Made by a program: the position numbers and the translations under genes
Notes under the pieces: model-generated
The model's database searches: none
What the model was told of the DNA's origin: nothing
What the model saw: only the letters and a program-made list of their open reading frames with translations
Source: a virus
Length of the DNA: 25,168 nucleotides
Virus record (IMG/VR): IMGVR_UViG_3300032323_001763
Coordinates: 1 to 25,168 of that record
Direction: 5' to 3' (one strand)
Part shown: positions 3,818-25,074 of the stretch, in pieces
How positions within the stretch are numbered: position 1 is the first letter of the stretch
Layout of the letters: each line of letters opens with the position of its first letter

Positions 3818-3821
3818 TTTT

Positions 3822-9565: not shown

Positions 9566-10396
9566 TTATTTTCTGTATTTAAACTTTTCAAAATACCATG
9601 TGTAGTTGTTATACAACCACTCACAAATATCTTGTCCTAAAATTTGTTTATAATCCGGTTGCTCCATCGATAATGTTGTGCGGATGCGATGCAAGTCAGA
9701 TGTTAAACCATAAACTTCATCATCCTCCTTTGTAATCTGTGCAATATTATCAAAATCATGCTCAAATTGTTCAACACCCAAATACTCATAAATGCGTTTC
9801 ATTTCGAGTTCGGGATTGAGGCACAAATCCTCGTATTTAACAAACAATACGTGTGTGTCTTGACCAAGACGTATCATTTCTAAAATGCGTTCAACAGCGC
9901 GCCCAATTGTCGATGTAGTATCCATCCATTCGTCCACTCGTTTGTGAACTATAGTTCCGCGACCCGTGGAATCATCACGAATCGGGTCATGTTTCAATGG
10001 GTTCTTACGATATATCTTTTCGTATGATGCAACAACTGCGCGTAAATCACGAACAAGGCAGATGATTTTTGGTTCTTCGTGTATCTCGGCTAAAAACGGC
10101 CTATACACTCCCCAACCTCTACTCTTGTCCATTACATACTTCTTGTCTGTAATTGCATTGTAAAACCCATACATACCTTCCTTGCAAAACGCCTTAAAAC
10201 CCTCCTCCATCAATTGCGCATCTTGCGCTTGGAATTCTGGTGATGATGTATAATTCGCTCTTGCGCCAAATATCAACTCCAAAACGCCCGATGTGGGTGT
10301 TACGTAAAAATCCGGGTTTTGCCCAAGGATGTTTTGAAACAATGTCGAGCCACTTCTTGGCATCGATGATTGAAAAAATATCTTACTTACTCCCAT
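9566..10396 (-). CDS. PAPS-dependent sulfotransferase
   Basis: Transfers sulfate from PAPS to a hydroxyl or amine acceptor, probably a glycan or lipid. 276 aa, cytosolic. The 5'-phosphosulfate-binding loop is SMPRSGSTLF (11-20). The 3'-phosphate-binding motif is VRDLRAVVASYEKIYR (115-130), with Arg116 and Ser124 in the expected places. The C-terminal half (HVLFVKYEDLCLNPELEMKRI, IYEYLGVE) is typical of the Sulfotransfer family. The start overlaps the GT9-like gene by 14 nt, so the two are translationally coupled and probably act on the same molecule. The acceptor is unknown. Confidence 0.85.
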   Translation of the reverse strand: MGVSKIFFQSSMPRSGSTLFQNILGQNPDFYVTPTSGVLELIFGARANYTSSPEFQAQDAQLMEEGFKAFCKEGMYGFYNAITDKKYVMDKSRGWGVYRPFLAEIHEEPKIICLVRDLRAVVASYEKIYRKNPLKHDPIRDDSTGRGTIVHKRVDEWMDTTSTIGRAVERILEMIRLGQDTHVLFVKYEDLCLNPELEMKRIYEYLGVEQFEHDFDNIAQITKEDDEVYGLTSDLHRIRTTLSMEQPDYKQILGQDICEWLYNNYTWYFEKFKYRK

Positions 10397-11276
10397 CGAA
10401 CATCTCTTTTACTGCATCAATAACCTCATCATCATTGAAAATCTCAGTTTCATCATTGAATGGGAATTCAAGTAAATCACCAACAATGTTGTATTTAGAG
10501 AATACGGAGTTTTTCAATTCAGGTGTTGTTGTTTCCCGATTTGCAATGATATTCTTATTGTTTAAGTATCCGAATTGTTTTGGAGTGTTTGCAACCCACA
10601 ACACAACAGAATCAAGCTGCAATGCCTTTGCAACATGTTGCGCGAATGAATCCATTAACAACCTGCCTTTTGACAACTTGATTAATACCACTAATGCGCG
10701 GAATTCTCCCGATACAGGCGTTGTATTTTGCAATCCAAGTTGGTCTTCACGCTTGATGTGAATAACGTTGTATTTGTCAACTAACGCATCAACAACTTTC
10801 TGTGCTGTTGTGATTGGAATATCGCGAGACCATGAGTATTTAATACCTTGTTCCTGCGCACCACCATTTGTTTGAATAACGAACAAAGGTTTCTCTGATG
10901 CATATTGTTGTGAGTAGAAATCAATCTCGCGTTGAGTAAGATATAATTTCGGTTGTTCGTTGTTATATTTAACATTGAACATTTCACACCAGGTTTCAAT
11001 GAGGTGTTTTTTGCGATTAATGAATGATGTTTCTTGATATGGATTATGCAAGAAAGTGATAACCTCTTGGTTTTCAATATAATCTTGATAAAAATATGGT
11101 AAATTGCCATGCGTAAGACATTTGTCTACGTGTGGATTACAAAGAAACACTTGTGGGTAAGCAGTGATAACGATGAGTTTATCATCGGGATACTGCGTTT
11201 TAATCGCTTCACAGACAGCGGTTGCCATGATTGACTTACCGATACCTCCGTCTATTGAAAAAATGATGTTTTTCAT
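10383..11276 (-). CDS. GT9-like glycosyltransferase (heptosyltransferase fold)
   Basis: 297 aa, two Rossmann-like halves. The N-terminus MKNIIFSIDGGIGKSIMATAV matches the GT9 opening (G--GD-i--t---a-k). The next sections (KLIVITAYPQVFLCNPHVDK; ETWCEMFNV; FVIQTNGGAQ; KGRLLMDSFAQHVAKAL) follow GT9/GT-B architecture, including a nucleotide-sugar pocket with the D-S-F-A-H-A region near residue 215. It would add a sugar to LPS, a capsule or a virus-specific glycan. It is coupled to the sulfotransferase by a 14-nt overlap. The GGIGKS string is not a Walker A motif here. Confidence 0.75.
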   Translation of the reverse strand: MKNIIFSIDGGIGKSIMATAVCEAIKTQYPDDKLIVITAYPQVFLCNPHVDKCLTHGNLPYFYQDYIENQEVITFLHNPYQETSFINRKKHLIETWCEMFNVKYNNEQPKLYLTQREIDFYSQQYASEKPLFVIQTNGGAQEQGIKYSWSRDIPITTAQKVVDALVDKYNVIHIKREDQLGLQNTTPVSGEFRALVVLIKLSKGRLLMDSFAQHVAKALQLDSVVLWVANTPKQFGYLNNKNIIANRETTTPELKNSVFSKYNIVGDLLEFPFNDETEIFNDDEVIDAVKEMFDGSK

Positions 11277-11670: not shown

Positions 11671-13560
11671 TTAAACAATTTTTAAAGTCCCTGCATCGTT
11701 CCAAACTGAACCTGCGGGTAAACCTGCGGAGGATGTTGGTATTGATTTAATAGAAAGGTTGTTTACAAATAGTGTGTTTGTTCTATCTGATGTAATGCCC
11801 ATACCCGCAATAAACGAACAATTACAAGAAGCTGCATTTCCACAACCACCTAAAACAGATGACCAATATCCGGATGCTGTATTGCTTTGTCCACCCGTTA
11901 CAAGTGAACATGCACCATTTGCAGTATTTGAACGCCCTCCTAAAACTGCTGAATTGTTTCCTGATGCTGTATTTAAACATCCCGAACCTACAAATGCGAA
12001 ATATGCAGATGCTGTATTGCTTTGTCCACCTACAATAACGCCTCCTGAACCTGCAGTGTTAGATGTTCCTGAAACTATTCCAGAATTTTTTTGACCAGAA
12101 ATTGTATTTACAAAACCAGCTCCGATAAAACCATAGTTGCCAGATACAGTATTTGCATAACCCCCACTGATAGTTGACCTTAGACCTGAAACATTGTGTT
12201 TTTGACCACCACTTACTGTTGATGTATATCCAGATGCTGTATTACATTGCCCTCCTGTGATTGAAGAAAAACTTCCTGTTGCCCTATTTTGAAAACCACC
12301 ACCTACAAAGGAGTATGCACCTGCATTGCAAATTGTAGGTGCAACTGTAAACGCACATGTTGCTAAATCCCAAGTACCACCTGTTGTGTTGTTTCCAACA
12401 CCACCTACTACTACCGCACCAAATGCAAGGCATCCACTTGTTGAATTACATACTGCGTTGCATTCGCCTCCTCCTACAAATGAATGAAAGGCACTAGCAA
12501 GGTTCCTTTCGCCTCCTGCAATTGTTGAACGTAATCCAGATGATGTATTTGATATACCGCCTCCTAAAAATGAATATGCGCCGCTAGCAGTGTTTGAACT
12601 TCCACTTCCAATAAAACTTCTAATACCTGAAGCAATATTCAAAACTCCTCCAGAAATTGTCGCAAATTGACCACTTGTGCTATTACACTGTCCCCCAGCA
12701 ATCGTACTATATCCACCGCTTGCAGTATTTGTTATACCTCCGCCTATACTTGTTCTATTTGCTGATGCGATGTTTGATTGACCCCCAGAAATAGTTGATG
12801 CAGTTAATGAAGCGGTATTCGAAAGCCCTCCACTTACAGTTGAGAAATCACCACATGCTACGTTTGTTGACCCGCCTGCAATTGTGGAATATTGCGCATT
12901 TGCAACATGACAAAAACCACCTCCGATAAAAGCTGCATAACCTGATGAAGTATTATTTTGTCCTCCGACTACAGTTGAAAAATTGTTAGTGCTTAAATTG
13001 AATCTGCCAGAAATAGATGATGCTGTGTTTCCTGATGCTGTATTTGATTGACCGCCTGCAACAACGTTTCTACATAACGATGCCGAATTACCAGATCCAC
13101 CGCCCACAAATGAACATCCTCCATTTGCTGAATTTGCACAACCGCCCGAAACCGTACTATAAGCAGAAGAAACGGTATTTGACCAACCTCCTGCAATTAC
13201 TGCGCTATTTCCACTTGCTGCATTTTGCCTGCCCCCACTTATAACGGCAAATGGCCCGCTAGAATTGTTACTAAAACCACCGCCTACAAATGCATCTGAT
13301 GCCGATGCTGAATTGTTTCTACCAAATGCTACTCCTGCATATGTTGATGATGCTGTGTTGCAACGACCACCTGCAACACCTGAACATGCACCAGAGGCTG
13401 TATTCAAAGTACCTCCTAATGCCGCGGAATACGCGCCAGAAGCGCTATTACTCACACCGCAACGAACTGTTGAGCATGTGCCTGCACCCAATATCTCAAC
13501 CGCACATAACGCAGGACATGATGCAGGTTGCCCAGTTGCTTGAAAACCAAATTCACTCAT
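11671..13560 (-). CDS. YadA-head-like, cysteine-rich repetitive virion fibre
   Basis: 629 aa. After MSEFGFQATG and a Cys-rich leader (residues 11-38), 22 uninterrupted 15-residue units run from 39 to 368. Their pattern is N-(T/S)-A-S-G-x-x-S-x-(V/I)-x-G-G-x-x, that of trimeric autotransporter (YadA/Hia) head beta-rolls. An insert (about 369-415, GNNTTGGTW, AFTVAPTICN) separates these from about 11 further, less regular units. The C-terminus (NNLSIKSIPTSSAGLP, then SVWNDAGTLKIV) resembles phage fibre ends. There is no signal peptide and no outer-membrane barrel anchor, so this is a virion fibre and not an autotransporter. It has 23 Cys by my count, unusual for this fold. Starts by ATGA overlap with its paralogue. 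Confidence 0.75.
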   Translation of the reverse strand: MSEFGFQATGQPASCPALCAVEILGAGTCSTVRCGVSNSASGAYSAALGGTLNTASGACSGVAGGRCNTASSTYAGVAFGRNNSASASDAFVGGGFSNNSSGPFAVISGGRQNAASGNSAVIAGGWSNTVSSAYSTVSGGCANSANGGCSFVGGGSGNSASLCRNVVAGGQSNTASGNTASSISGRFNLSTNNFSTVVGGQNNTSSGYAAFIGGGFCHVANAQYSTIAGGSTNVACGDFSTVSGGLSNTASLTASTISGGQSNIASANRTSIGGGITNTASGGYSTIAGGQCNSTSGQFATISGGVLNIASGIRSFIGSGSSNTASGAYSFLGGGISNTSSGLRSTIAGGERNLASAFHSFVGGGECNAVCNSTSGCLAFGAVVVGGVGNNTTGGTWDLATCAFTVAPTICNAGAYSFVGGGFQNRATGSFSSITGGQCNTASGYTSTVSGGQKHNVSGLRSTISGGYANTVSGNYGFIGAGFVNTISGQKNSGIVSGTSNTAGSGGVIVGGQSNTASAYFAFVGSGCLNTASGNNSAVLGGRSNTANGACSLVTGGQSNTASGYWSSVLGGCGNAASCNCSFIAGMGITSDRTNTLFVNNLSIKSIPTSSAGLPAGSVWNDAGTLKIV

Positions 13561-15518
13561 GGTACTATTGTTAAAACACCTCCATTACTCCAAACTGCCT
13601 TAGATGGTAAACCAGCAGAAGATGTTGGTATATTCATTATTGATAAATTATTTACAAATGTTGTACAATTCCTATTTGATGTAATATCAGATCCAACGAT
13701 ATATGATTTGTAACAAGATGCGGTATTATTGCAACCACCTAAAACTGCAGTAGCACGTCCAGATACTATATTATTTCGACCTCCACTAATTGTTGAATAA
13801 CAACCACTTGCCGTGTTACCAAACCCACCCCCGATGGTTACTCCAGCACCACCCGTTGCTTGATTACTTGAACCGCCACTTATGGTATTACCATTAGACG
13901 AAACTATTAAATTAGAATTACCCCCACCGATTGTTCCACAACATCCAGCATTTGTATTAGCGCATCCCCCCGTAATAGTAGCAAAATCTAAATTAGCTTG
14001 ATTATTAGCACCTCCACCTATAAATGTTCCACTATTAACTGATGAATTACTGGAGCCACCACCAATTGTACTTGGATAAGTGTCTTCATAATAATTAGAA
14101 GCCGTATTAAAACCTGCGGTGTTTTGAATACCTCCTCCTATCGTATGATTTGCTCGATTTTGGGAACATAAATTATTTAAGTTTTGGTTAATAGTATTTC
14201 CTGCTCCACCTCCTATAAATGATGCCCAACAATTTGTAGTTCCACATTGAGTATTATCTGCCCCTTGAATAACATTCGATATACCACCTGTAATAGTAGA
14301 AGCACAACCACCATAGTTACTTAATGTATTTAAAAAACCACCTCCAATAGTTCCCCATAGATTGCAAGCGGTGTTACACTCACCTCCTGCAACTACTGCT
14401 CTTTGTGCTATTGCCCTATTAATTGAACCACCACCGACTGTTGACAAATACTGACTTGCTGTATTAAATCTACCCCCGATTATACTTGTAAACTGACTCG
14501 TTGCTCGGTTTTGAAAGCCTCCCCCAATAAATGAGTATTGACCTGCATTACATATTGTTGGAGCAACTGTAAACGCGCATGAAGCCAATGTCCATGTCCC
14601 TCCCGTTGTATTGTTACCAATACCTCCGACTACCACTGCACCGATTGCAAGACATGAAGATGTAGAGTTGCAAGCGTTATTGCAAATACCGCCTAATACT
14701 GCTCCTGCATATCCTTGAACATTATTTCTAAATCCGCCTGCAATTGTTCCGCATGCACCATTAACTATATTCGAATTACCACCTCCAATGAATGAACGCG
14801 TACTTGTAATTGCATTTGAGTAACCGCCTGAAATTGTTGAAAAATCACCTGTTATGCAGTTATTATTACCTCCACCAATTGCTGTCCAGTTGTTGCATGC
14901 CTTATTTGAACCACCTCCCGCGATTGTTGCACCTGTATTTGCAGCGCAGTTTGCTGAACCACCGCCAATAAAAGTTGAATTTCCTGATGCCGTATTTGTA
15001 CACCCTCCTACAATAGTTGCATAAACTCCCGAAACAGTGTTTGTATTACCCGTTCCTATAAATGAATGGCATCCTGAAGCTGTGTTAAATGTACCCGTTA
15101 CAACTGATGCTCTAGCACCACTAACACTATTTCCGAAACCAGACCCAATAAATGTATATCCATTAGATACAGTTACCGCCCTACCGCTAGCGATACCAGC
15201 TTTTGATGCACTAGCAGTTAAACTTGCTCCATTTCCTGTTCCTAAAAATGCATGTCCTCCGCAATTTGTATTTAAATCACCGCCTCCAATAAATGAACAA
15301 GCACCTAATGCATTATTTGAACATCCTCCTACAACTATAGAGTATAATCCAGATGCAGTATTTGTTCTGCCGCCTAATGCTGCTGAATATGAGCCTGAAG
15401 CATTATTACTTACACCACAACGAACTGTAGAGCATGTGCCTGCGCCCAATATCTCAACTGCACATAATGCAGGACATGATGCCGGTTGACCCGTTGCTTG
15501 AAAACCAAATTCACTCAT
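13557..15518 (-). CDS. Second YadA-head-like, cysteine-rich fibre
   Basis: 653 aa tandem paralogue of the next gene. The first 38 residues are nearly identical (MSEFGFQATG, CPALCAVEIL, TCSTVRCGV). The body has the same GG-x-x-N-T-A-S-G repeats but with irregular unit lengths and longer inserts (for example around ADNTQCGTTNCW and FNTASNYYEDTYPS). The AFTVAPTICN/GNNTTGGTW insert is also shared. About 31 Cys by my count. C-terminus NNLSIMNIPTSSAGLP. No signal peptide or barrel. Probably a trimeric fibre with its own receptor specificity, or a partner of the paralogue. Confidence 0.72.
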   Translation of the reverse strand: MSEFGFQATGQPASCPALCAVEILGAGTCSTVRCGVSNNASGSYSAALGGRTNTASGLYSIVVGGCSNNALGACSFIGGGDLNTNCGGHAFLGTGNGASLTASASKAGIASGRAVTVSNGYTFIGSGFGNSVSGARASVVTGTFNTASGCHSFIGTGNTNTVSGVYATIVGGCTNTASGNSTFIGGGSANCAANTGATIAGGGSNKACNNWTAIGGGNNNCITGDFSTISGGYSNAITSTRSFIGGGNSNIVNGACGTIAGGFRNNVQGYAGAVLGGICNNACNSTSSCLAIGAVVVGGIGNNTTGGTWTLASCAFTVAPTICNAGQYSFIGGGFQNRATSQFTSIIGGRFNTASQYLSTVGGGSINRAIAQRAVVAGGECNTACNLWGTIGGGFLNTLSNYGGCASTITGGISNVIQGADNTQCGTTNCWASFIGGGAGNTINQNLNNLCSQNRANHTIGGGIQNTAGFNTASNYYEDTYPSTIGGGSSNSSVNSGTFIGGGANNQANLDFATITGGCANTNAGCCGTIGGGNSNLIVSSNGNTISGGSSNQATGGAGVTIGGGFGNTASGCYSTISGGRNNIVSGRATAVLGGCNNTASCYKSYIVGSDITSNRNCTTFVNNLSIMNIPTSSAGLPSKAVWSNGGVLTIVP

Positions 15519-15536: not shown

Positions 15537-15806
15537 TTATTTCGCAATCACTTCGAACACACCCGCAGTTGCAGTTATCGTAATTCCATCTAATGTAAAA
15601 CCAGAATCTGCGCGTAACAATATCGGTTGTGCTACATTCAATGCAGCCGCTGTATTCGTAACCCCAGGAACCGATGTAGTTCCAAGGATAGTTGCAGCGC
15701 CGGATATTAAATTAATAGATACGATAGAAAAACCCATCGTTTCTGTAATTGTGAATGTTGTATTTGTGAATGTTGAAGTGAAAACACTTTGATTTCTAAA
15801 TCCCAT
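15537..15806 (-). CDS. Free-standing fibre N-terminal (virion-anchor) domain
   Basis: 89 aa, beta-rich. It begins MGFRNQSVFTSTFTNTTFTI and matches, across its whole length, the first ~90 residues of the two large fibres (MSFKNQSVFSSVYTNTTFTI): the SGAATILG, PGVTN, QPILLRADSGFTL and AGVFEV segments all have counterparts. It has no receptor-binding part. It could be a short decoration protein occupying the same virion site, an assembly partner, or the remnant of a third fibre. Confidence 0.6.
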   Translation of the reverse strand: MGFRNQSVFTSTFTNTTFTITETMGFSIVSINLISGAATILGTTSVPGVTNTAAALNVAQPILLRADSGFTLDGITITATAGVFEVIAK

Positions 15807-15823
15807 GATTATATTTTTTCTTA

Positions 15824-18178
15824 TTAACTTACTTGGCGTGATAACGCGGTTTGATACGTTTGTACGCGGTTATATAAATTCGATGCGTCTGCGTCTGTTA
15901 AACCAGATCCGATTGAAGCAAAGGCAGATTCTCTATCTGTGTAGTTTCCTCTCGAAGCACCATTTGATTGAGCACCTATTATTAATGAAAATGCAGATGG
16001 TGATGATAATTGCGTTGTAGAATCAGTGCCTAATAAACTTCCGTTTTTATAAAGTTTTAAAGATGTACTCGTTGCACTATTTATAACATAACCCCTAGCA
16101 TCAACAACACTGAATCCAAGTGTTCTTGAACCTGCATTTATGCTAATTACACCAGAGAAACCAACTGCTAAATTTGAATAACTATTTGCCAATCCTGTAC
16201 CTACACCCATTTCAACTTTAGTTCCTGAAGTAGATGCAACTGTTCTTGCATAATAACTGATATGCGAATTTGCAAACATGCCCATTGATGTTTGAGTAAA
16301 GAACGTATCTGCATATCCATTTGCTCCATTCGGTGTTGCGCCTGTTGAACTATGCGTCCACCCTCCATTAAATACCAATCTATATGCTGCATCTAAATCA
16401 CGAGGGTCTTTCAAATTGTATTTATGCGTTGTTGCAGTTCCTCCAACAAATGGATAAATTGCTGTCATCTTATTCCACAAGTTATCATATTTCAATCCGA
16501 GTACCAAGTTGTTAATTGCATCCGCTTGTGTTACATCCGTAATCTGTGCTGCATCAATAAACGCTTGCGCGTTTGGATCTGATACAACAAGGACACCCAC
16601 TTGTCTACTTAACGCTTCTTGATATGTTTGAACTGCAATGTAATAATTAGCTACTTCGGTATCAGTGAATCCATCGCCTAAAGTATAAAACTTAAACTGC
16701 CTATCACTTGGATTACCTGTTCCACTACTAAATTGATTTCCAATAACAAAATTATTTGTATTTGCGTTAGCAATTATTGTTTCACTTACTGTACCCAGTT
16801 TTGTATTTTTTTCAAATACATTCACTTGAGTACTGCTAATTCTGTTCATTCCAAAAAATCCATTTCTTGAAGATGTAGAAAATGTATTAATATTTGCGCT
16901 ATTAAATTGGAAATACAATAATGTATCGCTTGGGGGTAGTGTAATTCTTGCATTTGGCGTTCCATTAATATTTCCGCTATCCCAACTAATTGCATTTACA
17001 CCAACATTTCCATAGTAAAAAATACTTGTAGAATTATAATTGGTAAAATTGCTGTTTTTAAATTTCGTATCTGCGTACCCATTTGTACCATTTCCTTGTG
17101 CGCCTGATATTGAAAATGTCCATCCTCCGTTGAATACTAATCTGAAAGCAGCGTCTAAATCGCGCGGGTCTTTGAGGTTGTATTTGAATTGTGATGCGAT
17201 GTATGCTTGTTGTGTAGTTGCGATTGGTTGGTAGGTTGATAAACTACCTATTTCTAATTGCGCACCCCACACATAATATGAAGCCAATCCATTGCCTGTG
17301 TATGAAACACTATTGTCAGCATTAGCACCATAATAAGCGGTATAGTTAACATTGGAAGCAGACATTGGCATCGTAATAGAACAACGATACCATCCATTTC
17401 CTTCATTACTTATATATGCAGTTGCTCCACTTTGAACAGTTCCAATCGTTCCTGTATTAATATTAAACCAAGCATTTCTACCTGTTGTGCCATCAAATAA
17501 AGAAACGACAAACCAATCACGAACAATCTTCTTAACATAAATACTCATAGTACAATTGCCATTACTTAAAGCAATTGCAGAAACTGCATTTGATATATAG
17601 TGATTACCTCCACTTGTATTCTCTGTTAATGTATCAGCAGTTGTAGTTCCATCAGGAGCAGTTGTTGAATTGGCAGTTGCAGTAAATCCACTTCTTACCC
17701 AATTTCCAGCAGTCACATCATTTGTATATGACCAAAGATTCCTATTATCCGTAACAAACGGATAAATCGCTTTCATTTTACTCCACAACCCGTATCCTTT
17801 CAAACTTTTGACTAAATTGTCAATTGCAAGTTGTTGTGCTGCGCCTGTGATGCCCGTAGCTGTGAAATACGCTGCGGCTGATGCATCAACTCCATTATTG
17901 TACTGATATGTACCATAAACCTCAAAAACACCGCCTGCTGTCGAATCTATTGTGATATCTGTCAATGTATATCCACTATCCGCATTTAAAACCACAGGTT
18001 GACCTACAGTTATTGCAACTGGATCTAATGTTAAACCAGGAACTCGTAAACCACCGAGTAAAGTCGCCGAACCAGACATCAATTCAATTACAACTTCAGA
18101 TAATTGCATATCTTCAGTTATGGTGAATGTTGTATTGGTATATACGGACGAGAAAACACTTTGATTTTTGAAACTCAT
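15824..18178 (-). CDS. Large modular fibre: anchor, CBM-like and two LamG-like domains
   Basis: 784 aa. Residues 1-92: anchor domain shared with the 89-aa gene. About 95-149: helical linker (GAAQQLAIDNLVKSLKGYG, WSKMKAIYPF). About 149-325: beta-sandwich resembling the carbohydrate-binding modules common in phage fibres (ISNEGNGWYRCSITM, YYVWGAQLEIG). About 330-545 and 600-784: two concanavalin/LamG-like domains, each opened by YNLKDPRDLDAA(F/Y)RLVFNGGW and closed by (T)YQ-ALSRQV. A second linker (DPNAQAFIDAAQITDVTQ) joins them. The protein is polar with no signal peptide. Receptor binding through surface glycans is inferred. Paralogue at 19220-21604. Confidence 0.7.
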   Translation of the reverse strand: MSFKNQSVFSSVYTNTTFTITEDMQLSEVVIELMSGSATLLGGLRVPGLTLDPVAITVGQPVVLNADSGYTLTDITIDSTAGGVFEVYGTYQYNNGVDASAAAYFTATGITGAAQQLAIDNLVKSLKGYGLWSKMKAIYPFVTDNRNLWSYTNDVTAGNWVRSGFTATANSTTAPDGTTTADTLTENTSGGNHYISNAVSAIALSNGNCTMSIYVKKIVRDWFVVSLFDGTTGRNAWFNINTGTIGTVQSGATAYISNEGNGWYRCSITMPMSASNVNYTAYYGANADNSVSYTGNGLASYYVWGAQLEIGSLSTYQPIATTQQAYIASQFKYNLKDPRDLDAAFRLVFNGGWTFSISGAQGNGTNGYADTKFKNSNFTNYNSTSIFYYGNVGVNAISWDSGNINGTPNARITLPPSDTLLYFQFNSANINTFSTSSRNGFFGMNRISSTQVNVFEKNTKLGTVSETIIANANTNNFVIGNQFSSGTGNPSDRQFKFYTLGDGFTDTEVANYYIAVQTYQEALSRQVGVLVVSDPNAQAFIDAAQITDVTQADAINNLVLGLKYDNLWNKMTAIYPFVGGTATTHKYNLKDPRDLDAAYRLVFNGGWTHSSTGATPNGANGYADTFFTQTSMGMFANSHISYYARTVASTSGTKVEMGVGTGLANSYSNLAVGFSGVISINAGSRTLGFSVVDARGYVINSATSTSLKLYKNGSLLGTDSTTQLSSPSAFSLIIGAQSNGASRGNYTDRESAFASIGSGLTDADASNLYNRVQTYQTALSRQVS

Positions 18179-18202
18179 GATAATTATTTTTGCAGTGTAG
18201 GA

Positions 18203-18454
18203 TTATTGAGGCATTGGAGGTGTTGGTTTCGGAACGTATTCAATTAACGGAAGTTCTTTAACCCACAATGTTTCTTCATTCGTTGTATCTTGCATCTCCT
18301 CAACGCTAATCACCCAGTTGTCATCTGCATCCTGAATTGGATTATAAATCGAATCTGGCGCGTAATAAACGCCTACAAGCGAGTCTTTTTGCTCTTCAGT
18401 TAATAAACCTACATAAACTGTAGTGTCCTCTTGTGTGATGTCTGTTAGTTTCAT
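18203..18454 (-). CDS. Small acidic protein of the fibre cluster
   Basis: 83 aa, acidic, with a Pro-rich end (YVPKPTPPMPQ). The segments LTEEQKDSLVG, YNPIQDADDNWVISVEEM and WVKELPLIEY match a pattern I have seen for small proteins encoded beside fibre genes in Bacteroidota phages. It may be a fibre-associated or assembly protein. The start codon is coupled to the end of the HNH gene (TAATG), and the large fibre gene follows 24 nt downstream. Confidence 0.55.
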   Translation of the reverse strand: MKLTDITQEDTTVYVGLLTEEQKDSLVGVYYAPDSIYNPIQDADDNWVISVEEMQDTTNEETLWVKELPLIEYVPKPTPPMPQ

Positions 18455-19188
18455 TATACTTGTTCTTTAAATTTTTTCAATATTTCTCTAAATAACTCAT
18501 CTTTGTAAGCTCCTCTTGCTTTGTTTACCCATACGCACACAAATTGTACATTACCTTCAACATAGCCTAATTCATTATCAATTCTATCTAAAGATATTAA
18601 ATATGGGCTTGATGTCATTTCACGCTTCTCAATGTAAGTTTTTGGACATAATATTTGAGTATTTGTGTACGAGCATTTAAAATCTTGTTTCTCCAATAAT
18701 CTTTGCAAATATTCAATGCTTACCGTAAATGGATAATTTCTTGAATTTGCATTTGATTTCCAACTTCCAAATAGTGAATTATAAATATTTTTAGTTCCTC
18801 CCTTATTACAGTTTCTTGGTTGACGCTTGCCAGATGCCCATACTTTTGACATCATTCCACTCTTACCTTCAACTCTTTTAATATTGTTTCTCTCAATTAT
18901 TAATTTAACTTTTTCAGATCCTATTTTATACTTCTTTGATAATTCATTTTGAGTAGCTCCGTTTTTATACTGTTCACATAATGCATCTTCATAATCAAAT
19001 TTAAGTTCTTTTATACTTGCATATAATGCAGATTTACCCATCATCTCAACACCGTTCATCTTTAATACTCTACGAACTCTGTCGGTAGTTGCATTTAAAT
19101 AAGTTGCAATTTGTTGTACTGTCTTCTTACCATAGTTGCTTACTATATAATCAGCATCTAATGGTTTAAAATTATTCCATGTTCCCAT
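18454..19188 (-). CDS. HNH homing endonuclease
   Basis: Predicted free-standing selfish endonuclease that cuts a related virus genome at the cognate site and spreads by repair. 244 aa from the ATG at 19188. Two helix-turn-helix-like segments (KKTVQQIATYLNATTDRVRR, 21-40; NELSKKYKIGSEKVKLIIER, 81-100) should read DNA. The C-terminal HNH-type nuclease has FKCSYT (170-175), SLDRIDNELGY (199-209), EGNVQFVC (211-218) and Asn222, the layout of phage SxDRID-type HNH enzymes. The longer start at 19227 would overlap the fibre stop; 19188 follows a -7 promoter element directly. Its base composition is more AT-rich than its neighbours. Confidence 0.8.
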   Translation of the reverse strand: MGTWNNFKPLDADYIVSNYGKKTVQQIATYLNATTDRVRRVLKMNGVEMMGKSALYASIKELKFDYEDALCEQYKNGATQNELSKKYKIGSEKVKLIIERNNIKRVEGKSGMMSKVWASGKRQPRNCNKGGTKNIYNSLFGSWKSNANSRNYPFTVSIEYLQRLLEKQDFKCSYTNTQILCPKTYIEKREMTSSPYLISLDRIDNELGYVEGNVQFVCVWVNKARGAYKDELFREILKKFKEQV

Positions 19189-19192
19189 AAGA

Positions 19193-19200
19193 CAAATATA
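19193..19200 (-). promoter_or_regulatory. -7 element directly upstream of the HNH gene
   Basis: Minus-strand TATATTTG, identical to the element at 11653-11660, ends 4 nt before the ATG at 19188. Transcription would begin at or next to the start codon and so give a leaderless mRNA. No TTG is visible at the correct -33 spacing, which lowers confidence. Confidence 0.35.
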
Positions 19201-19219
19201 CAATAATGTAGTCATTTCA

Positions 19220-21604
19220 TTAAGCAATTTGACGCCCTAAGGCTGTTTGATATGCTTGTACTATGGTGTATAGGTTCAATGCGTCTGCATCGGTTAAACC
19301 ATCACCTATTGATGCGAAGGCGGTTTGACGATTAGAATATGAGCTTGGGCTACCTGTTAAATTTAAAGCTGATATGTATAAGCTCACAGTAGATAAAGCA
19401 GATGTTTGCGCTCCATCAATAACTTTTACTCCGTTTTTATATCCCGTTGTGTTGGTGCTTGAATTTCTATTGGTTACAAACAATCCTAAACTTGAAGTAT
19501 TGGCTATTGATTTAACTTGAGCAGTTGCGCCATAGCAAGTATAAAATTTATCATCAAGGTATCTTGTTATCAAATTTTGTTCCGTTGCACCAACACTTGA
19601 CCCCATATCATATACACCCGTATTGTTGTTAGTTCTTGAATAAAAACTAAAGTGTCCGCTTGTTGTAGATAAAGACGAACTCGGAGATAAATATGTGTTA
19701 GCATATCCATTAGTCCCATTAGGAGTAGCCCCATTACTAGAATGTGTCCACCCTCCGTTGAAAACTAAACGATATGCAGCATCAGAATCAACCGGATTCA
19801 TAAGGTTGAATTTATGAGTTGATGCTGTTCCTCCAACAAAAGGATAAACCGCTTTCATTTTTGTCCACAATCCATTGTACTTTAATCCTAGTACCAAGTT
19901 GTTGATTGCATCCGCTTGAGTTACATCTGTAATCTGTGCTGCATCAATGAATGCTTGTGCATTTGGATCTGATACAACTGGAAGACCTACTTGGCGACTT
20001 AATGCTTCTTGATATGTTTGAACTGCAATGTAAAGGTTAGCTGCTTCGGTGTCGGTTAGACCCTCTCCAATTGTATCAAATGCGTGTTGATGAGGAGTGT
20101 ATTGTGTAGGTCCTGTTGACCAATTTGAACCACCTAAATATATTGTCCTATTTGGCAATAATTTAGTTTCGGTATTTGTATTCGTATTAAGTGAACTACC
20201 GTTAAAATATAATTTTGCAGAATTATTTGCGGTTCTATTACCTATTTGAAAACCTAAAGTATTCGTATTATTTACATATACGGCTGTTAATGAATATCCA
20301 TACAATGAAGAACCTTTTGCTAAAACACTGGCATAATATTGCCAAATATTTACTTCACTATTACTTACTGAATCGTAAGCACCTAATTGAACACCATTAA
20401 CTGAAGTATTTTGTGTTCTTGAATAATTAGATGCGTGAACACTAAATTGAGATAAATTAGTTCTTGGATTGAAAAATGTATCCGCAAACCCATTAGTTCC
20501 ATTAGGTAAAGCGCCATTTGTTGAAAATGTCCATCCTCCATTGAATACTAATCTGAAAGCCGCGTCTAAATCGCGCGGGTCTTTAAGGTTGTATTTGAAC
20601 TGATTTGCTATTGCTGATTGAGCAGATGCAAGTTGTGGCTGGTAAGCAGTAAGCGTTCCTATTTCGTTTTGTGCTCCCCAACAAAATGTTGATTTTCCAG
20701 TAACAGCAGTAAAATTGTATACTCCATTTCCATCAGCATGTCTAAGTGCTATCAACGCATTATTTGTACCTGGCATAATTCCCGTTACTGAAACACGATA
20801 CCATCCATTTCCTTCATTTGAAATCGAGCTTGTTAAATAAGTTCCTACAGTTGCATTAGCAGTTCCTAAAACTCCATTTTGAACATCAACCCAAAGACGA
20901 ATACCATCTTGACCTGTTCCGTTCCAAATTTCAAGAGTTACCCATTGAGCATTATTGTACTTTAAATAAATACTATTTGTAAAAGTTTGTCCATTTCCTG
21001 CAATCCATCCTAAATTCCAAAATACATTATTTGCATTTGAAGTTGTAGCAAAAGTATCCGCAGTTAATGTTCCGTTAGGAGCGATAGCTGTATTTGCAGT
21101 TCGTGTCATTACAACTGAATTCCATCCAATTGCATTTGTTATGTCTTCACTATATCCTGCAAGATTACGTTGGTCAGTAACAAACGGATATATAGCTTTC
21201 ATCTTCGACCACAACCCGTATCCTTTCAAACTTTTGACTAATCCATCAATAGCTGCTTGTTGTGTTGCGCCTGTGATGCCCGTAGCTGCAAAATATGCAG
21301 CAGCCGCTGGATCTACTCCATCGTTATACCCATAAATGCCTATAATTTCAAATACACCGCCTGCAGTTGAATCAACGGTTATGTCTGATAATGTATAACC
21401 TTTATTCGCTTTTAATACAACAGGTTGATTAAAATCAAGTGAAACAGGTATGTTGACTAACCCCGGTATTTGCAAACCTCCAAGTAATGTCGCTGTGCCA
21501 GAAACCACCTCAATTGAAACCTCAGAAATTTGCATCTCCTCAGTAATTGTAAATGTAGTATTGGTAAATACAGACGAAAATACGCTTTGGTTCTTAAAAC
21601 TCAT
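19220..21604 (-). CDS. Large modular fibre, paralogue of 15824-18178
   Basis: 794 aa with the same plan as its paralogue: anchor domain (MSFKNQSVFSSVFTNTTFTI, 1-92), linker (GATQQAAIDGLVKSLKGYG), CBM-like beta-sandwich (about 150-330, ISNEGNGWYRVSVTG, CWGAQNEIG), LamG-like domain 1 (from YNLKDPRDLDAAFRLVFNGG), linker 2 (DPNAQAFIDAAQITDVTQ, identical to the paralogue) and LamG-like domain 2 (from FNLMNPVDSDAAYRLVFNGG). The linkers and domain edges are almost identical between the two proteins, while the cores of the LamG-like domains differ strongly. It is the first gene of the fibre run, preceded by a regulatory region at 21605-21727. Confidence 0.7.
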   Translation of the reverse strand: MSFKNQSVFSSVFTNTTFTITEEMQISEVSIEVVSGTATLLGGLQIPGLVNIPVSLDFNQPVVLKANKGYTLSDITVDSTAGGVFEIIGIYGYNDGVDPAAAAYFAATGITGATQQAAIDGLVKSLKGYGLWSKMKAIYPFVTDQRNLAGYSEDITNAIGWNSVVMTRTANTAIAPNGTLTADTFATTSNANNVFWNLGWIAGNGQTFTNSIYLKYNNAQWVTLEIWNGTGQDGIRLWVDVQNGVLGTANATVGTYLTSSISNEGNGWYRVSVTGIMPGTNNALIALRHADGNGVYNFTAVTGKSTFCWGAQNEIGTLTAYQPQLASAQSAIANQFKYNLKDPRDLDAAFRLVFNGGWTFSTNGALPNGTNGFADTFFNPRTNLSQFSVHASNYSRTQNTSVNGVQLGAYDSVSNSEVNIWQYYASVLAKGSSLYGYSLTAVYVNNTNTLGFQIGNRTANNSAKLYFNGSSLNTNTNTETKLLPNRTIYLGGSNWSTGPTQYTPHQHAFDTIGEGLTDTEAANLYIAVQTYQEALSRQVGLPVVSDPNAQAFIDAAQITDVTQADAINNLVLGLKYNGLWTKMKAVYPFVGGTASTHKFNLMNPVDSDAAYRLVFNGGWTHSSNGATPNGTNGYANTYLSPSSSLSTTSGHFSFYSRTNNNTGVYDMGSSVGATEQNLITRYLDDKFYTCYGATAQVKSIANTSSLGLFVTNRNSSTNTTGYKNGVKVIDGAQTSALSTVSLYISALNLTGSPSSYSNRQTAFASIGDGLTDADALNLYTIVQAYQTALGRQIA

Positions 21605-21727: not shown

Positions 21728-21988
21728 TTACTTCTTTTTTGCAAAAGCCAAAATCGCAATCACCGCAACAATACCAACGCCAACATAAAGCATTTTCTGT
21801 TTGTTAGTTTTTGATGCCCAAAAACCTGGTCGTTCTTCAGGTGCGGGTTTTTGTACGCCTACTGGTTCAACGAGAATGGGTTTTTTTGTTTCTACCGTAA
21901 CCCCACCAGCCGTTACAGGCTTTGGTTTAGAGGTATAAAGCGGTTTGGATAGGGGATTGGGTTTTGTATAAGGGTTTGTTAAAGCCAT
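21728..21988 (-). CDS. Pro-rich protein with C-terminal TM
   Basis: 86 aa. Residues 1-60 are extended, Pro/Lys/Thr-rich (NPYTKPNPLSKPLYTSKPKP) and probably disordered. Residues about 66-83 form a TM (MLYVGVGIVAVIAILAF) ending in AKKK. Tail-anchored, with the Pro-rich arm on one side of a membrane and only lysines on the other. No family recognised. It is the last gene of a run of TM proteins and lies 2 nt from its upstream neighbour. A virion membrane protein is the favoured inference. Confidence 0.55.
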   Translation of the reverse strand: MALTNPYTKPNPLSKPLYTSKPKPVTAGGVTVETKKPILVEPVGVQKPAPEERPGFWASKTNKQKMLYVGVGIVAVIAILAFAKKK

Positions 21989-21989
21989 T

Positions 21990-22532
21990 TTATTTCTTTT
22001 TCTTAATTACAAAATATGCAATTGCGCCAACAACCGCAAGAACACCTACACCGATTAACACTTTTGTTGTTGTAGACATCGGTTGTGAATCCGTTGCACC
22101 TAATGCTTTTGCAAGTTCAACATCTGATGCTTTATCTTGACCTACTGCGCGATTTAAATCTGCACGAGACCTGCGCTCCTCAGCCTTTGATGATGTGCGA
22201 GCATCACGTCTAGTTTTTCTTGCAGCGCGTCTTTTTCTTGTTTCCTCCTCGGATAATGCACCTTTGATGTTCTGTCTTATTGATGCACCAACTCCATCGG
22301 CTGGATAGAAATTGTCTTGGTCGAAATAGTTACCAGTGTTTTGAGCCGCTGATGCAACAACCATACTAATTCTGCCTTCAGAATCTGCATGATTAATCAT
22401 ACCGTCTGCGTTGTTAAACGAGTTGTTGAAATAAGGAAAATCCTCACGTGTGTTCAAACCTGTCGTTCTATCTGATGGTGATGATTGTTCGATTGAAATC
22501 GGCTCACCATCAAGTTCCATGTTTACTTTCAT
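21990..22532 (-). CDS. Arg-rich protein with C-terminal TM
   Basis: 180 aa. The N-terminal 90 residues are polar and Asn/Asp-rich. Residues about 95-135 are extremely basic (EETRKRRAARKTRRDARTSS), a likely nucleic-acid- or phospholipid-binding helix. Residues about 157-176 form a TM (VLIGVGVLAVVGAIAYFVI), followed by KKKK. A membrane-anchored basic protein could link packaged DNA to an internal virion membrane. That role is inferred from charge and topology alone. Confidence 0.55.
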   Translation of the reverse strand: MKVNMELDGEPISIEQSSPSDRTTGLNTREDFPYFNNSFNNADGMINHADSEGRISMVVASAAQNTGNYFDQDNFYPADGVGASIRQNIKGALSEEETRKRRAARKTRRDARTSSKAEERRSRADLNRAVGQDKASDVELAKALGATDSQPMSTTTKVLIGVGVLAVVGAIAYFVIKKKK

Positions 22533-22548
22533 TTTTCTTCTATTTAAA

Positions 22549-23325
22549 TTAAGGTTTTGCCTTTTTAACTGTTTTAATCAAAACGTAAATTGCTATCCCT
22601 AACAATCCTAAAATCAATCCAGTTCTACCTGGGTTATTCTTAACTGTTGTGCCAATTGTTGTTGTTACATACCTGTACAAATCACCTACGCGTTTCAAAG
22701 CATTTGTCATACCGCCCAACTTGTCTTGTGATTTTAAACCTTTCACATATGCAACAGAATTGCCCGTTCCCGCGGTTACGTGGTAAAAAGCAAGTGTAGC
22801 ATCCTCTGCGTTTTTAAAATCGTTTATACCCGTTGAATTGTACGCCTTTAGTTTGCCCGAATTCTTCAATGAATTGATACCTTGTTTGTTGAACTCTATC
22901 AACACTTTTGCAGCAGTTTTTGGGTCATTGACCTTATCCGGGTTAGATACAAGGTCTTCATTAATTCGTTTGCCAAAAGCATCGTAATTGCTTTTAAACG
23001 TCAATTGATTAAATCCTCTACCCCTGTACTTATACCCTTCATTTTTCGCATTACCATACCTGCCCCCGTAAATTGCATCACCAATTTCTTTTGGTTTCCC
23101 AGCCAATTGATTAGCCCTAGAGCTTGAAAGGTTAAAAACCTCCTGCAGCCTTTTGGCTGAATAATTCAAGTTCTCGGATTGCGGAATGAATTTGCTTTCT
23201 TTTGAGACAATAGACAATATGGCAGCAATGGAATACGGATTCGTAATACCACCTTTAACGGCTTCGTCTTTTATCAAAGCCATATTCCTTTTCTGTTCTG
23301 CCGATAATGTGTCTACGTAACTCAT
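22549..23325 (-). CDS. Tail-anchored GH19-like peptidoglycan hydrolase
   Basis: 258 aa. The GH19-like core matches the endolysin at 4980-5600: SIVSKESKF with the putative catalytic Glu43, SENLNYSAKRL (50-60), AIYGGRYGNA and YKYRGRGFNQLTFKSNYDAFG. A linker leads to a C-terminal TM (residues about 235-253, TGLILGLLGIAIYVLIKTV) and a basic end (KKAKP). No N-terminal signal is seen. A second GH19 enzyme fixed to a membrane and encoded among other TM proteins suggests a virion enzyme that opens peptidoglycan during entry, distinct from the soluble lysis enzyme. Confidence 0.8.
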   Translation of the reverse strand: MSYVDTLSAEQKRNMALIKDEAVKGGITNPYSIAAILSIVSKESKFIPQSENLNYSAKRLQEVFNLSSSRANQLAGKPKEIGDAIYGGRYGNAKNEGYKYRGRGFNQLTFKSNYDAFGKRINEDLVSNPDKVNDPKTAAKVLIEFNKQGINSLKNSGKLKAYNSTGINDFKNAEDATLAFYHVTAGTGNSVAYVKGLKSQDKLGGMTNALKRVGDLYRYVTTTIGTTVKNNPGRTGLILGLLGIAIYVLIKTVKKAKP

Positions 23326-23328
23326 ACG

Positions 23329-23964
23329 TTATGAAATCAAAGCCTTCAGCGTATCCCAGATACTTGTATTATCAATTGTTTTGCCTTTTTTCGCTCCGAA
23401 GTTAATTACAATCCTACGACCGCGGTTTGACCACGTACCCGTATTCAATGTAGAACCATAAGCCGATGCAAAATGTGCAAACTTCTTATCTAATTGATAA
23501 CGCGCAATTGTTCCGTTTGATAAATCAACATCAACCGAAGCAACTGAACCTGCACCAGATAATGGGATAATCCTTGCCTTAGACGCAGTCAATAAGTAAA
23601 CGCGATATAAATCACCATAAACATTGAAAACTGCGCGTGTTGAAGGGCCTGCAATACCATACCCCGCACCTTTGTTCAATTTCTTATACTTCCCATCCGT
23701 ACCTCGCACCCAAGGTCCAATTGAGTCCATAAAATCTTGAAACTTCTTTACCTTATCCATTGAATTTAATTCAACAGGTAGGGCAACAGGAGAAGGTGCT
23801 GGCGTGGGTGTTACATTAGTTGTTGAGTCATCGGTTGGTGCGGCATCAATATCCTCATCACCCTCTTCAACATCCCTATTCTTTGCAAAAAGATACCATG
23901 CAACACCCGCTATAACAACAACAGAACCACCAATAAGTAATAACCTTTTAGTTTTACTTTCCAT
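23329..23964 (-). CDS. TM-anchored putative peptidoglycan-binding protein
   Basis: 211 aa. N-terminal TM (LLLIGGSVVVIAGVAWYLF, about 8-26), an acidic/Pro/Thr spacer (about 30-65) and a globular domain. The stretch VKKFQDFMDSIGPWV to GYGIAGPSTRAVFNVYGDLY follows the V--FQ----------G-G-GP-T--A---YG layout of peptidoglycan_binding_1-like modules. The final 100 residues are beta-rich and unrecognised. It is 3 nt from the tail-anchored GH19 gene, so the two probably form an anchoring-plus-cutting pair for cell-wall penetration. Confidence 0.55.
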   Translation of the reverse strand: MESKTKRLLLIGGSVVVIAGVAWYLFAKNRDVEEGDEDIDAAPTDDSTTNVTPTPAPSPVALPVELNSMDKVKKFQDFMDSIGPWVRGTDGKYKKLNKGAGYGIAGPSTRAVFNVYGDLYRVYLLTASKARIIPLSGAGSVASVDVDLSNGTIARYQLDKKFAHFASAYGSTLNTGTWSNRGRRIVINFGAKKGKTIDNTSIWDTLKALIS

Positions 23965-23975
23965 GTTCTGATAAA

Positions 23976-24194
23976 TTACTTCTTAACAGTACCTACGGAT
24001 GGTGTAGATTTTTTAGCCGCGATAGCAGATTGTGCATAAGCACCTGCAACACCACCTAAAACTGCTAAACTCAAACGTACCCAAGTTTTAGATACACCTG
24101 TGTACTTTCCTACTGCCCAATATGTAACGAGTGCGCCTGCGGCTGTACCGATAATATTGTTTTTTACTTTTGCGATTGGTTGTTTAAACATCAC
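23976..24194 (-). CDS. Small two-TM protein
   Basis: 72 aa. Two Ala/Gly-rich hydrophobic stretches (IIGTAAGALVTYWAVGKY, about 14-31; VRLSLAVLGGVAGAYAQSAI, about 39-58) and a basic C-terminus (KKSTPSVGTVKK). No family recognised. Short, Gly/Ala-rich TM proteins in a row of similar genes suggest virion membrane constituents. Confidence 0.55.
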   Translation of the reverse strand: MMFKQPIAKVKNNIIGTAAGALVTYWAVGKYTGVSKTWVRLSLAVLGGVAGAYAQSAIAAKKSTPSVGTVKK

Positions 24195-24221
24195 TTTAAA
24201 TTTTAATGGTTAATTACTCGA

Positions 24222-24329
24222 TTACTTCTTAACTTGCTTAACAACAAGGAAGGTTAACAATCCGATGATGATTAGATTGTGTACGTTTTGTCCACCAAGG
24301 AACGTGTTAGGGTTTTTAATATCAAACAT
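24222..24329 (-). CDS. Very small membrane protein (35 aa)
   Basis: ATG at 24329-24327 and TAA at 24224-24222. The product opens MFDIKNPNTFLGGQNVHN, then has a TM (LIIIGLLTFLVV) and ends KQVKK. It fills the gap between two other small membrane-protein genes, is spaced like its neighbours, and has an A-rich stretch before its start on the minus strand, so I believe it is translated. Topology and Lys-rich end match the other tail-anchored proteins here. Confidence 0.6.
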   Translation of the reverse strand: MFDIKNPNTFLGGQNVHNLIIIGLLTFLVVKQVKK

Positions 24330-24364
24330 TTTTTTTTGATTTTAAGGGTTAATTAATAAACTGA

Positions 24365-24562
24365 TTAATTTTTAGATACTTCGATTTTGTCTTTCATTGC
24401 GTAATTGAATGCTGCAACGCCTACCAAAACGGCAATAACGGGCATCAAACCTTCACGAACACTCTTTACTGTAAACAATTGCATACCCGCACCTACGACC
24501 AAAGCCGCAGATCCAGCGATTGTTGCAATCTTAACTGTTTTTTGAACTGTTGGATTTTTCAT
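24365..24562 (-). CDS. Small two-TM protein
   Basis: 65 aa. TM1 about residues 11-30 (KIATIAGSAALVVGAGMQLF), TM2 about 38-55 (GLMPVIAVLVGVAAFNYAM), then a charged tail (KDKIEVSKN). Similar in size and Ala/Gly richness to 23976-24194, though the two are not clearly homologous. Possible virion membrane protein. Confidence 0.55.
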   Translation of the reverse strand: MKNPTVQKTVKIATIAGSAALVVGAGMQLFTVKSVREGLMPVIAVLVGVAAFNYAMKDKIEVSKN

Positions 24563-24579
24563 TTTTACTTGTTTTTAAA

Positions 24580-25074
24580 TTAAACTCTATACTTGATACC
24601 TTTTGATTGAAGAATATCATTTACTTTTTTCACTTCCGCATCACTCATCTCCCAACGAATGTATTGTGGCAATGTCATATTACGACCAATACCCCATTCG
24701 TAAACTTTACGATTAGGTTTACCCCATGCATTTAGCAATTTGAGGTAATCGGTGTTGTTTTTCAATTTGCGAAAAGTAGAATAAATTGCAGCCTCATCCG
24801 TACCTACATCAAAACCTGCAGTTTCAATTGTGTTGGCAAATGTGCGGTATTGTGAATCGGGATATGATGCTGGTTTCTTTTTAGATTCAGTTTGAAGTTC
24901 GTTTTGAACCTCACTCTCCTCTTTTCTATCCGCTTCCTCCGTATCACCCAATTTCTGAGTTAACTTGTAAAACGCATAACCAACCGCACCAACAACCGCA
25001 ACTGCAACAATGCCTTTTGCCCAAGGTGGTAAACCAAGAAATGATTTTTGCGCGAATTTTGTATTTACTGCCAT
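24580..25074 (-). CDS. TM-anchored protein with a C-terminal helical domain
   Basis: 164 aa. TM at about residues 18-40 (WAKGIVAVAVVGAVGYAFY), a charged linker (about 42-68), then a domain with FDVGTDEAAIYSTFRKLKNN, LLNAWG, and EVKKVNDILQSKGIKY at the end. I have seen this GTDE---I------L-----y--L---fG / V--IL---GI-Y pattern in Bacteroidota phage proteins, without a known function. It starts the visible run of membrane proteins and is separated by 24 nt from the truncated upstream gene. Confidence 0.55.
   Translation of the reverse strand: MAVNTKFAQKSFLGLPPWAKGIVAVAVVGAVGYAFYKLTQKLGDTEEADRKEESEVQNELQTESKKKPASYPDSQYRTFANTIETAGFDVGTDEAAIYSTFRKLKNNTDYLKLLNAWGKPNRKVYEWGIGRNMTLPQYIRWEMSDAEVKKVNDILQSKGIKYRV

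Follow-up and report, generated by a model that had tools for sequence, protein, structure and literature searches.

A block of membrane-protein genes in a viral fragment points to large tailless viruses of Bacteroidota

What kind of virus particle is served by a run of short genes that nearly all encode proteins with a hydrophobic segment? The question is raised by the IMG/VR record IMGVR_UViG_3300032323_001763, a virus fragment of 25,168 bases that was analysed over its whole length and is called the window here, in which such a block occupies positions 21728-25074. A first-pass annotation had taken the block as a sign of a membrane-containing virion, perhaps that of an undescribed, large Bacteroidota virus. 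From a comparison of the window with related contigs and bacterial genomes, we consider it likely that the block makes up the distal portion of the region for virion morphogenesis in a large tailless Bacteroidota DNA virus with a jelly-roll capsid, HerA-type packaging and an inner membrane. Within this reading the tailless jelly-roll/HerA plan is well supported, and the inner membrane is probable.

All genes from 3206 to 25074 lie on the minus strand of the window, so that genes upstream of the block would fall beyond base 25168, and the fragment ends 94 bases upstream of the first block gene (25074). Because the window is a fragment, relatives were used for the check that the annotation had proposed, namely whether a jelly-roll capsid protein and an A32-like ATPase are present or instead a terminase, portal and tape measure. 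An IMG/VR scan with the protein encoded at 24580-25074 returned one relative, in the 50,833-base contig G001 (59% identity), and the widest search, made with the ATPase described below, added 16 further IMG/VR contigs, for a related set of 17. These contigs are 22-146 kb long and incomplete, and their records are classed as viral in IMG/VR. The longest, G002 (146,216 bases), is without end repeats and is a possible chimera, against which can be set a DnaB-type helicase family that recurs in seven records. Thirty open reading frames (ORFs) of the window match something in G001-G010; 26 of the 30 match G001, mostly in collinear order and at 39-90% identity.

The ORF listing gives seven minus-strand ORFs at 21728-25074 rather than the eight first counted, and a clear hydrophobic segment (Kyte-Doolittle, 19-residue window, threshold 1.6) is present in six of them, at the C terminus in three, at the N terminus in two and as a pair of segments in one. 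With the count corrected, the description of a run of consecutive membrane-protein genes holds in part. The seven products, with lengths in amino acids (aa) and hydrophobic segments given as predicted transmembrane (TM) residues, are as follows.

21728-21988, minus: 86-aa protein, C-terminal TM 65-83, no relative in G001-G010
21990-22532, minus: 180-aa protein, basic stretch and C-terminal TM 158-176, 50% relative in G001
22549-23325, minus: GH19 muralytic enzyme, 258 aa, C-terminal TM anchor 235-253
23329-23964, minus: 211-aa protein, N-terminal TM 8-26, 43% over 67 aa in G001
23976-24194, minus: 72-aa small hydrophobic protein, TM under threshold in the window copy
24365-24562, minus: 65-aa protein, two hydrophobic segments 12-30 and 38-56, 90% over 60 aa in G001
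24580-25074, minus: 164-aa protein, N-terminal hydrophobic segment 13-31, 59% in G001, also in G003, G004, G008 and G009

The tail-anchored GH19 enzyme was correctly recognized, matching PF00182 (29.3 bits, cut-off 25.5) and the endolysin family phrog_181 (6.7e-32) and carrying a C-terminal anchor. Its neighbour at 23329-23964 had been called a putative peptidoglycan-binding protein, a label that we do not retain, as it has no match in the Pfam or PHROG libraries; a search of the phage collection likewise gave no match for this protein or for that of 24580-25074. Relatives in other records were found for six of the seven block proteins, the product of 21728-21988 having none at 1e-4 among G001-G010. 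The family of 23976-24194, whose window copy lies under the TM threshold, is present in 9 of 11 records, and two thirds of its members pass.

Upstream of the block, G001 encodes a spike-like 354-aa protein, then proteins of 358 aa and of 262 aa, the latter with an HExxH motif, followed by several proteins with a C-terminal anchor and a protein of 245 aa. A 282-aa ATPase gene lies 4.9 kb further upstream of this last one. The HExxH motif is invariant in the alignment of the 262-aa family, which is a predicted peptidase on this basis. Read across the relatives, the full order would run from an FtsK-HerA-type ATPase through a single-jelly-roll capsid protein, a first TM-anchored set, the presumed peptidase with the HExxH motif, a second, capsid-like paralogue of jelly-roll type and a spike-like protein to the block of the window, followed by fibres and lytic genes.

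Jelly-roll proteins, HerA-type ATPase and tailed-phage hallmarks

The 245-aa capsid candidate occurs in 15 of the 17 contigs (nine plus six); the exceptions are G010 and G011, both of which break off close to the ATPase gene. Mean column identity is 74% for the capsid candidate and 75% for the ATPase. The candidate has no match at E 1 among 50,697 phage records and none in Pfam, and in PHROGs its best is E 0.089. A first AlphaFold2 model, built from nine close sequences, was poor (mean pLDDT 50), and its fold searches also list jelly rolls; our reading of the fold rests on a second run made with 18 more diverse sequences, in which ten-residue block means are 68-95 across residues 61-200 and the chain is all-beta with a jelly-roll-like strand order. 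With this model, every one of the ten top Foldseek rows against the PDB is a jelly-roll capsid protein, the sources being picorna-, tymo- and related viruses (lowest E 1.2e-3), and VIA-align places cowpea mosaic virus at the top (Z 6.1, rmsd 4.0, 124 residues aligned). The capsid proteins of P23-77 (VP16/VP17), PRD1 and PM2 are absent among the fold rows listed, which excludes nothing. We have fair confidence that the 245-aa protein is modelled rightly as a single jelly roll and, because of its genome context, we infer that it serves as the capsid protein.

A second protein shares this ancestry. The C-terminal half of the 358-aa protein aligns with the capsid candidate at 84% hhalign probability (E 7.4e-6, 96 columns), and its hidden Markov model matches five of seven capsid candidates from newly fetched loci at 8e-5 to 8e-3. 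This capsid-like paralogue occurs in 8 of 11 records, and four more contigs have it as well. In G002 the capsid candidate has another two paralogues, both divergent, beside the ATPase (L007:2016-3523).

The 282-aa ATPase matches Pfam DUF87, the HerA central domain, at 30.9 bits (cut-off 23.2), and is present in 10 of 10 relatives in the cluster table and in 17 of 17 contigs, the contig search having itself been made with the ATPase. A divergent clade in bacterial genomes, considered below, has an ATPase that matches PF05707 (Zot) at 20.8 bits, just over the cut-off of 20.3; HerA and Zot are both members of the FtsK-HerA superfamily. Against the 50,697 phage records the ATPase gave no convincing match, only a short one to a Lactococcus terminase small subunit (E 0.06), and neither the ATPase nor the capsid profile found anything among PDB sequences. 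We suggest that this ATPase packages DNA into the particle, in line with passages of PMC5894146 in which double-jelly-roll viruses package their DNA with FtsK-HerA ATPases unrelated to terminases. The proposed check on the relatives thus came out on the jelly-roll side, with a HerA-type ATPase in all 17 contigs and a predicted single jelly roll in 15.

We considered whether the hallmarks of tailed phages might be present as well. PHROG scans were made with 55 proteins of G001 and with 75 proteins, each 190 aa or longer, encoded in G005 and in the late part of G002, which together cover the capsid regions of these three contigs, and 25 of 40 and 25 of 62 matching families were listed. No terminase, portal, HK97 capsid or tape measure is among the families listed for these 130 proteins, which include endolysins, DnaB, primase, thymidylate synthase and exonucleases; the terminase large subunit by which Caudoviricetes are judged is accordingly missing from the families listed for G001, G002 and G005. 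As a control, the same library detects the terminases of the phages crAss001 (1.8e-94), 11b (9e-36) and B40-8 (2.4e-54). The Pfam searches were also negative: Terminase_3 in 0 of 17 contigs, Terminase_6N (PF03237) in 0 of 9, portal PF04860 in 0 of 17 records (4 of 14 control genomes match, and sensitivity for Bacteroidota portals is uncertain) and HK97 capsid PF05065 in 0 of 17 contigs (sensitivity in Bacteroidota uncertain). Two listed families bear tail names, phrog_326 (tail protein with endopeptidase domain, 1.6e-11) and phrog_33406 (tail fibre, 8e-6), and we read the corresponding proteins as a putative lytic enzyme and a putative fibre.

These results bear on the possibility that the window comes from a tailed phage in which divergence has put the terminase, portal and tail genes beyond recognition, the jelly rolls decorating the head or forming parts of fibres and the HerA-like ATPase having another role. 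The contigs are incomplete, some PHROG matches carry tail labels, the Pfam terminase search misses three of five tailed controls, and tail proteins appear among the Foldseek matches of the poorer model to viral predicted structures, all of which such a phage could account for. It would not explain, however, why PHROGs strongly detects three Bacteroidota phage terminase large subunits and lists none in 130 proteins, or why the ATPase-capsid pair is the conserved core of both clades, and we regard a hidden tailed phage as very unlikely.

Several observations nevertheless weigh against a tailless virus with a jelly-roll capsid and a membrane. Neither the capsid gene nor the ATPase gene lies within the window itself, and the virion plan is predicted here from genes. 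The fold matches are weak, with a Foldseek E of 1.2e-3 or higher and a VIA Z of 6.1 or lower, a Z that by the tool's own warning may reflect a common arrangement only; the VIA-align rows close behind cowpea mosaic virus are plant virus capsids together with several non-capsid jelly rolls, and non-capsid jelly rolls are among the Foldseek rows too. PF03237 matches only two of five Bacteroidota tailed-phage controls, one of them over the cut-off, which makes its absence a weak test, and only 25 of 40 and 25 of 62 PHROG families were listed. The window fibres match PHROG families labelled tail, and the best PHROG of the ATPase of the divergent clade (clade B) is named 'terminase large subunit' (phrog_2666, 1.4e-5), a label that is also given in records to the ATPases of PRD1, PM2 and P23-77. 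In single-sequence comparison, the ATPases and capsid proteins of P23-77, PRD1, PM2 and FLiP have no sequence match here. Finally, the longest run of TM genes in the window under a strict predictor is four, equal to the highest tailed-phage value. A census of P-loop patterns, tried as proof of terminase absence, was dropped, since the pattern finds only one of three known terminase large subunits.

Membrane anchors and virion lipid

The TM predictor flags some beta proteins and inflates raw TM fractions; these were dropped as main evidence because the capsid candidate itself is among the proteins flagged. We relied instead on C-terminal anchors. The eight relatives that hold the block have 9-18 C-terminally anchored ORFs each (G001 11, G002 18, G003 10, G004 9, G005 13, G007 15, G008 12, G009 10), two relatives without the block have 1 and 0, and the window has 4. 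Six stretches of five Bacteroidota tailed phages contain 0, 0, 3, 1, 4 and 1, so that the count in block-holding relatives (9-18 versus 0-4) exceeds chance. The corresponding values are 1 for P23-77, 0 for PRD1, 4 for PM2 and 1 for FLiP.

The position of the anchored genes is also informative. A capsid-like gene stands on either side of them, and few genes of the region are retained in as many records (8-9 of 11). In G001, the slot of the window's GH19 gene holds a different lytic enzyme, by its sequence probably the one with the Glucosaminidase match, and both enzymes end in a hydrophobic segment. Some anchored proteins have strongly basic stretches. The anchors, the slot-sharing enzymes and the basic stretches would fit proteins of an internal membrane, and we suggest that the virion contains lipid and that the seven window proteins have a role in it.

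In such a particle, an icosahedral lattice built from the two jelly-roll proteins would enclose a lipid vesicle that holds the TM-anchored proteins, some of which have basic arms that perhaps face the DNA, and the ATPase would pump DNA into the particle in place of a terminase-portal machine. Fibres would attach the particle to the cell, a muralytic enzyme with a tail anchor (GH19 in the window, another enzyme in the relative) would open the peptidoglycan, and the membrane would become the conduit for DNA delivery.

The same genes could belong to a tailless jelly-roll virus without virion lipid, the TM proteins staying out of the particle and working in the envelope of the host, where they would serve assembly, egress, lysis or superinfection exclusion. 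Jelly-roll capsids also build membrane-free virions, anchored lytic enzymes could serve release, and both the lipid and the TM-protein content of the virion are read from gene content. On the other hand, the placement of widely kept anchored genes between the capsid-like genes and the C-terminal anchoring of two unrelated lytic enzymes in one slot are less easily explained in this way, and we think a lipid-free virion unlikely.

Bacteroidota genomes and known virus groups

A contig of a metagenome-assembled genome (MAG), titled Bacteroidetes bacterium, carries the capsid gene and an end fragment of the ATPase gene. When 395 genomes of the MAG's class (Bacteroidota) were searched with the capsid profile, six matched, four of them weakly (25-28 bits). 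The four weak matches appear to be genuine, with ATPase, peptidase or second-capsid homologues beside them in order (G023, G299, G126). They define a divergent clade, the capsid families of the two clades aligning at 97.2% hhalign probability (E 4.8e-11, 130 columns), and a profile of the divergent capsid matches 8 of 395 genomes, comprising seven full-length genes and a remnant in G209. The cassette gene order is kept in G023, G299, G126, G189 and G397; G114 was left out of this check, and the fetched part of G238 stops short of any ATPase. In G209 the capsid gene is decayed and interrupted by an in-frame stop, and the 51 kb examined contain no ATPase. At E 1e-15, an ATPase profile matched none of 395 genomes from the phylum, a result set aside as uninformative because the G018 fragment (3.2e-14) was missed as well.

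At least two divergent forms are proviruses that adjoin host genes. In G023, host-like genes near a tRNA-Arg gene (53425-53499) border the element on its left, and a tyrosine integrase is encoded at 125764-127086, close to the contig end; because no direct repeat of at least 16 bases marks its ends, the element's boundaries are unproven. In G299 the element adjoins genes read by eye as pyrH, tsf, rpsB, rpsI and rplM. The middle part of the second capsid protein in the divergent clade matches a beta-propeller (Lactonase, 7.9e-9), and this region is plausibly a turret.

Integration in host contigs would also be expected of a non-viral integrative or conjugative element with a HerA or VirB4-like transfer ATPase, and HerA-like ATPases and polyvalent proteins do occur in conjugative elements. 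Such an element would not be expected to encode jelly-roll paralogues that match viral capsid proteins, along with fibres and several lytic enzymes, in records classed as viral in IMG/VR, and we give this explanation hardly any weight. In favour of the large membrane-containing Bacteroidota virus that had been proposed, then, stand contigs of up to 146 kb and Bacteroidota genomes as carriers, whereas the virion lipid is something we infer.

Where would a large tailless virus of this kind be placed? Its plan most resembles that of Singelaviria (Helvetiavirae; P23-77 and the haloarchaeal HCIV-1 and HHIV-2), with two jelly-roll capsid-like proteins, an FtsK-HerA-type ATPase near the capsid genes, and genes for membrane proteins and a cell-wall enzyme, as the realm's plan is set out in passages of PMC12714852 and PMC6414509. 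A divergent branch of that realm is therefore possible, if somewhat doubtful: no sequence similarity to VP16, VP17 (single-sequence hhalign) or the ATPase of P23-77 is detectable, the hosts here are Bacteroidota, and the P23-77 genome has 17,036 bases versus contigs of up to 146 kb. Capsids of that realm consist of single vertical jelly-roll proteins and enclose an internal lipid membrane; the model here predicts a single jelly roll with a confident core, accompanied by the paralogous second protein.

PRD1 and PM2 (Varidnaviria, Bamfordvirae) share the FtsK-HerA packaging ATPase, the tailless plan and a membrane-anchored lytic enzyme, PM2 P5 being annotated with a putative TM domain, but the capsid candidate here is predicted to fold as one jelly roll and not two, and their genomes (14,927 and 10,079 bases) are far below 146 kb. 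The Flavobacterium phage FLiP (Finnlakeviridae) is lipid-containing and tailless with a Bacteroidota host; unlike the 22-146 kb contigs, it has a 9,174-base ssDNA genome in a family of small circular genomes of about 9 kb. Its capsid protein is a double jelly roll. Our capsid profiles have no match to PRD1 P3, PM2 P2 or the FLiP major capsid protein. Crassvirales and other Bacteroidota Caudoviricetes are similar in host phylum, genome size (about 100 kb), DnaB, thymidylate synthase and elaborate fibres, but they have their own terminase, portal and HK97-type capsid, none of which is among the families listed here, and few tail-anchored proteins.

The genomes are unusually large for tailless jelly-roll phages, at up to 146 kb versus 7-30 kb in the literature and records compared: prokaryotic double-jelly-roll viruses have roughly 7-18 kb in passages of PMC5894146, and other sources give 16-19 kb for Simuloviridae and about 30 kb for Sphaerolipoviridae. 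The annotation's expectation of an undescribed virus agrees with a search of the full-text literature, in which no description of large single-jelly-roll tailless Bacteroidota viruses was met as far as titles and abstracts show, bioRxiv being hardly covered.

We therefore put forward, tentatively and as a proposal that falls a little short of an even chance, a separate high-rank lineage, possibly its own kingdom or realm, of large tailless bacterial viruses with a single-jelly-roll capsid, a turret-bearing paralogue, a HerA-type ATPase, a protein-rich internal membrane and genomes of at least 100 kb, widespread in Bacteroidota as free virus and provirus. If this were true, bacteria would have a counterpart to the large membrane-containing eukaryotic DNA viruses, and the lineage would bear on the kinship of these with single- and double-jelly-roll viruses. 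Large phage genomes would then not require tailed-phage machinery, and large membrane-containing capsids could be studied in bacteria. Because the provirus form is present in 7 of the 395 genomes sampled from one class, it may be possible to find carrier strains and induce them.

The proviruses also carry other genes. Defence-like islands with MADS, Ssp/Dnd and Pgl-type matches and methyltransferases lie near the capsid gene at L086:7997-19940 and L088:8497-17577. G126 has a defence-like island between the capsid gene and the ATPase, an interval that holds other cargo in G397 and G189 and that may be a defence hotspot. In G023, the virion genes are separated from the integrase by PorP/SprF (PF11751, 6.9e-62) and its very large neighbours (L094:70-9357), a region that, from this match, might be lysogenic cargo touching the type IX secretion surface; the same genome encodes very large polyvalent-type proteins with methyltransferase, helicase and DarB-like matches (L092:5206-15608).

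Genes flanking the block

The fibre genes do adjoin the block, as first described, but the PHROGs label for them is 'tail protein' (phrog_5939, matching at 2.7e-13 and 8.7e-31). The remaining features of the window are these.

19220-21604, minus: 794-aa fibre-like protein adjoining the block, phrog_5939
15824-18178, minus: 784-aa fibre-like protein, phrog_5939
15537-15806, minus: 89-aa protein, a domain common to the N-termini of both phrog_5939 fibres
11671-15518, minus: two repeat-rich fibre proteins, 629 and 653 aa, related to G001 35160-38459
9022-9528, 8766-8999, 7856-8191 and 7171-7854, minus: small genes, mostly TM-bearing, collinear with G001
6976-7164, 6731-6976, 5868-6458 and 5600-5866, minus: small genes, mostly TM-bearing, collinear with G001

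Within 15537-21604, a 90-aa protein of G001 matches the stand-alone 89-aa ORF and both large fibres (88 aa each), and the common domain looks like a shared attachment domain. Beside the fibres, at 9566-11276, are a sulfotransferase gene and a gene that is weakly glycosyltransferase-9-like, with 78% and 72% identity in G001; the pair may modify glycans of the virion or host surface. An iron/manganese superoxide dismutase is encoded at 3206-3853 (PF02777 7.8e-31, PF00081 7e-23).

Elsewhere in G001 are a eukaryote-type topoisomerase IB (L004:18991-19683; PF01028 4.8e-21), a very large polyvalent-type protein with an ADP-ribosyltransferase domain (ART-PolyVal; L004:1144-4899) and a MoxR-type AAA ATPase followed by a 555-aa protein without known family (L004:6064-9123). 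The MoxR-type cluster recurs in 6 of 11 records, and its 555-aa neighbour in 4 of 11.

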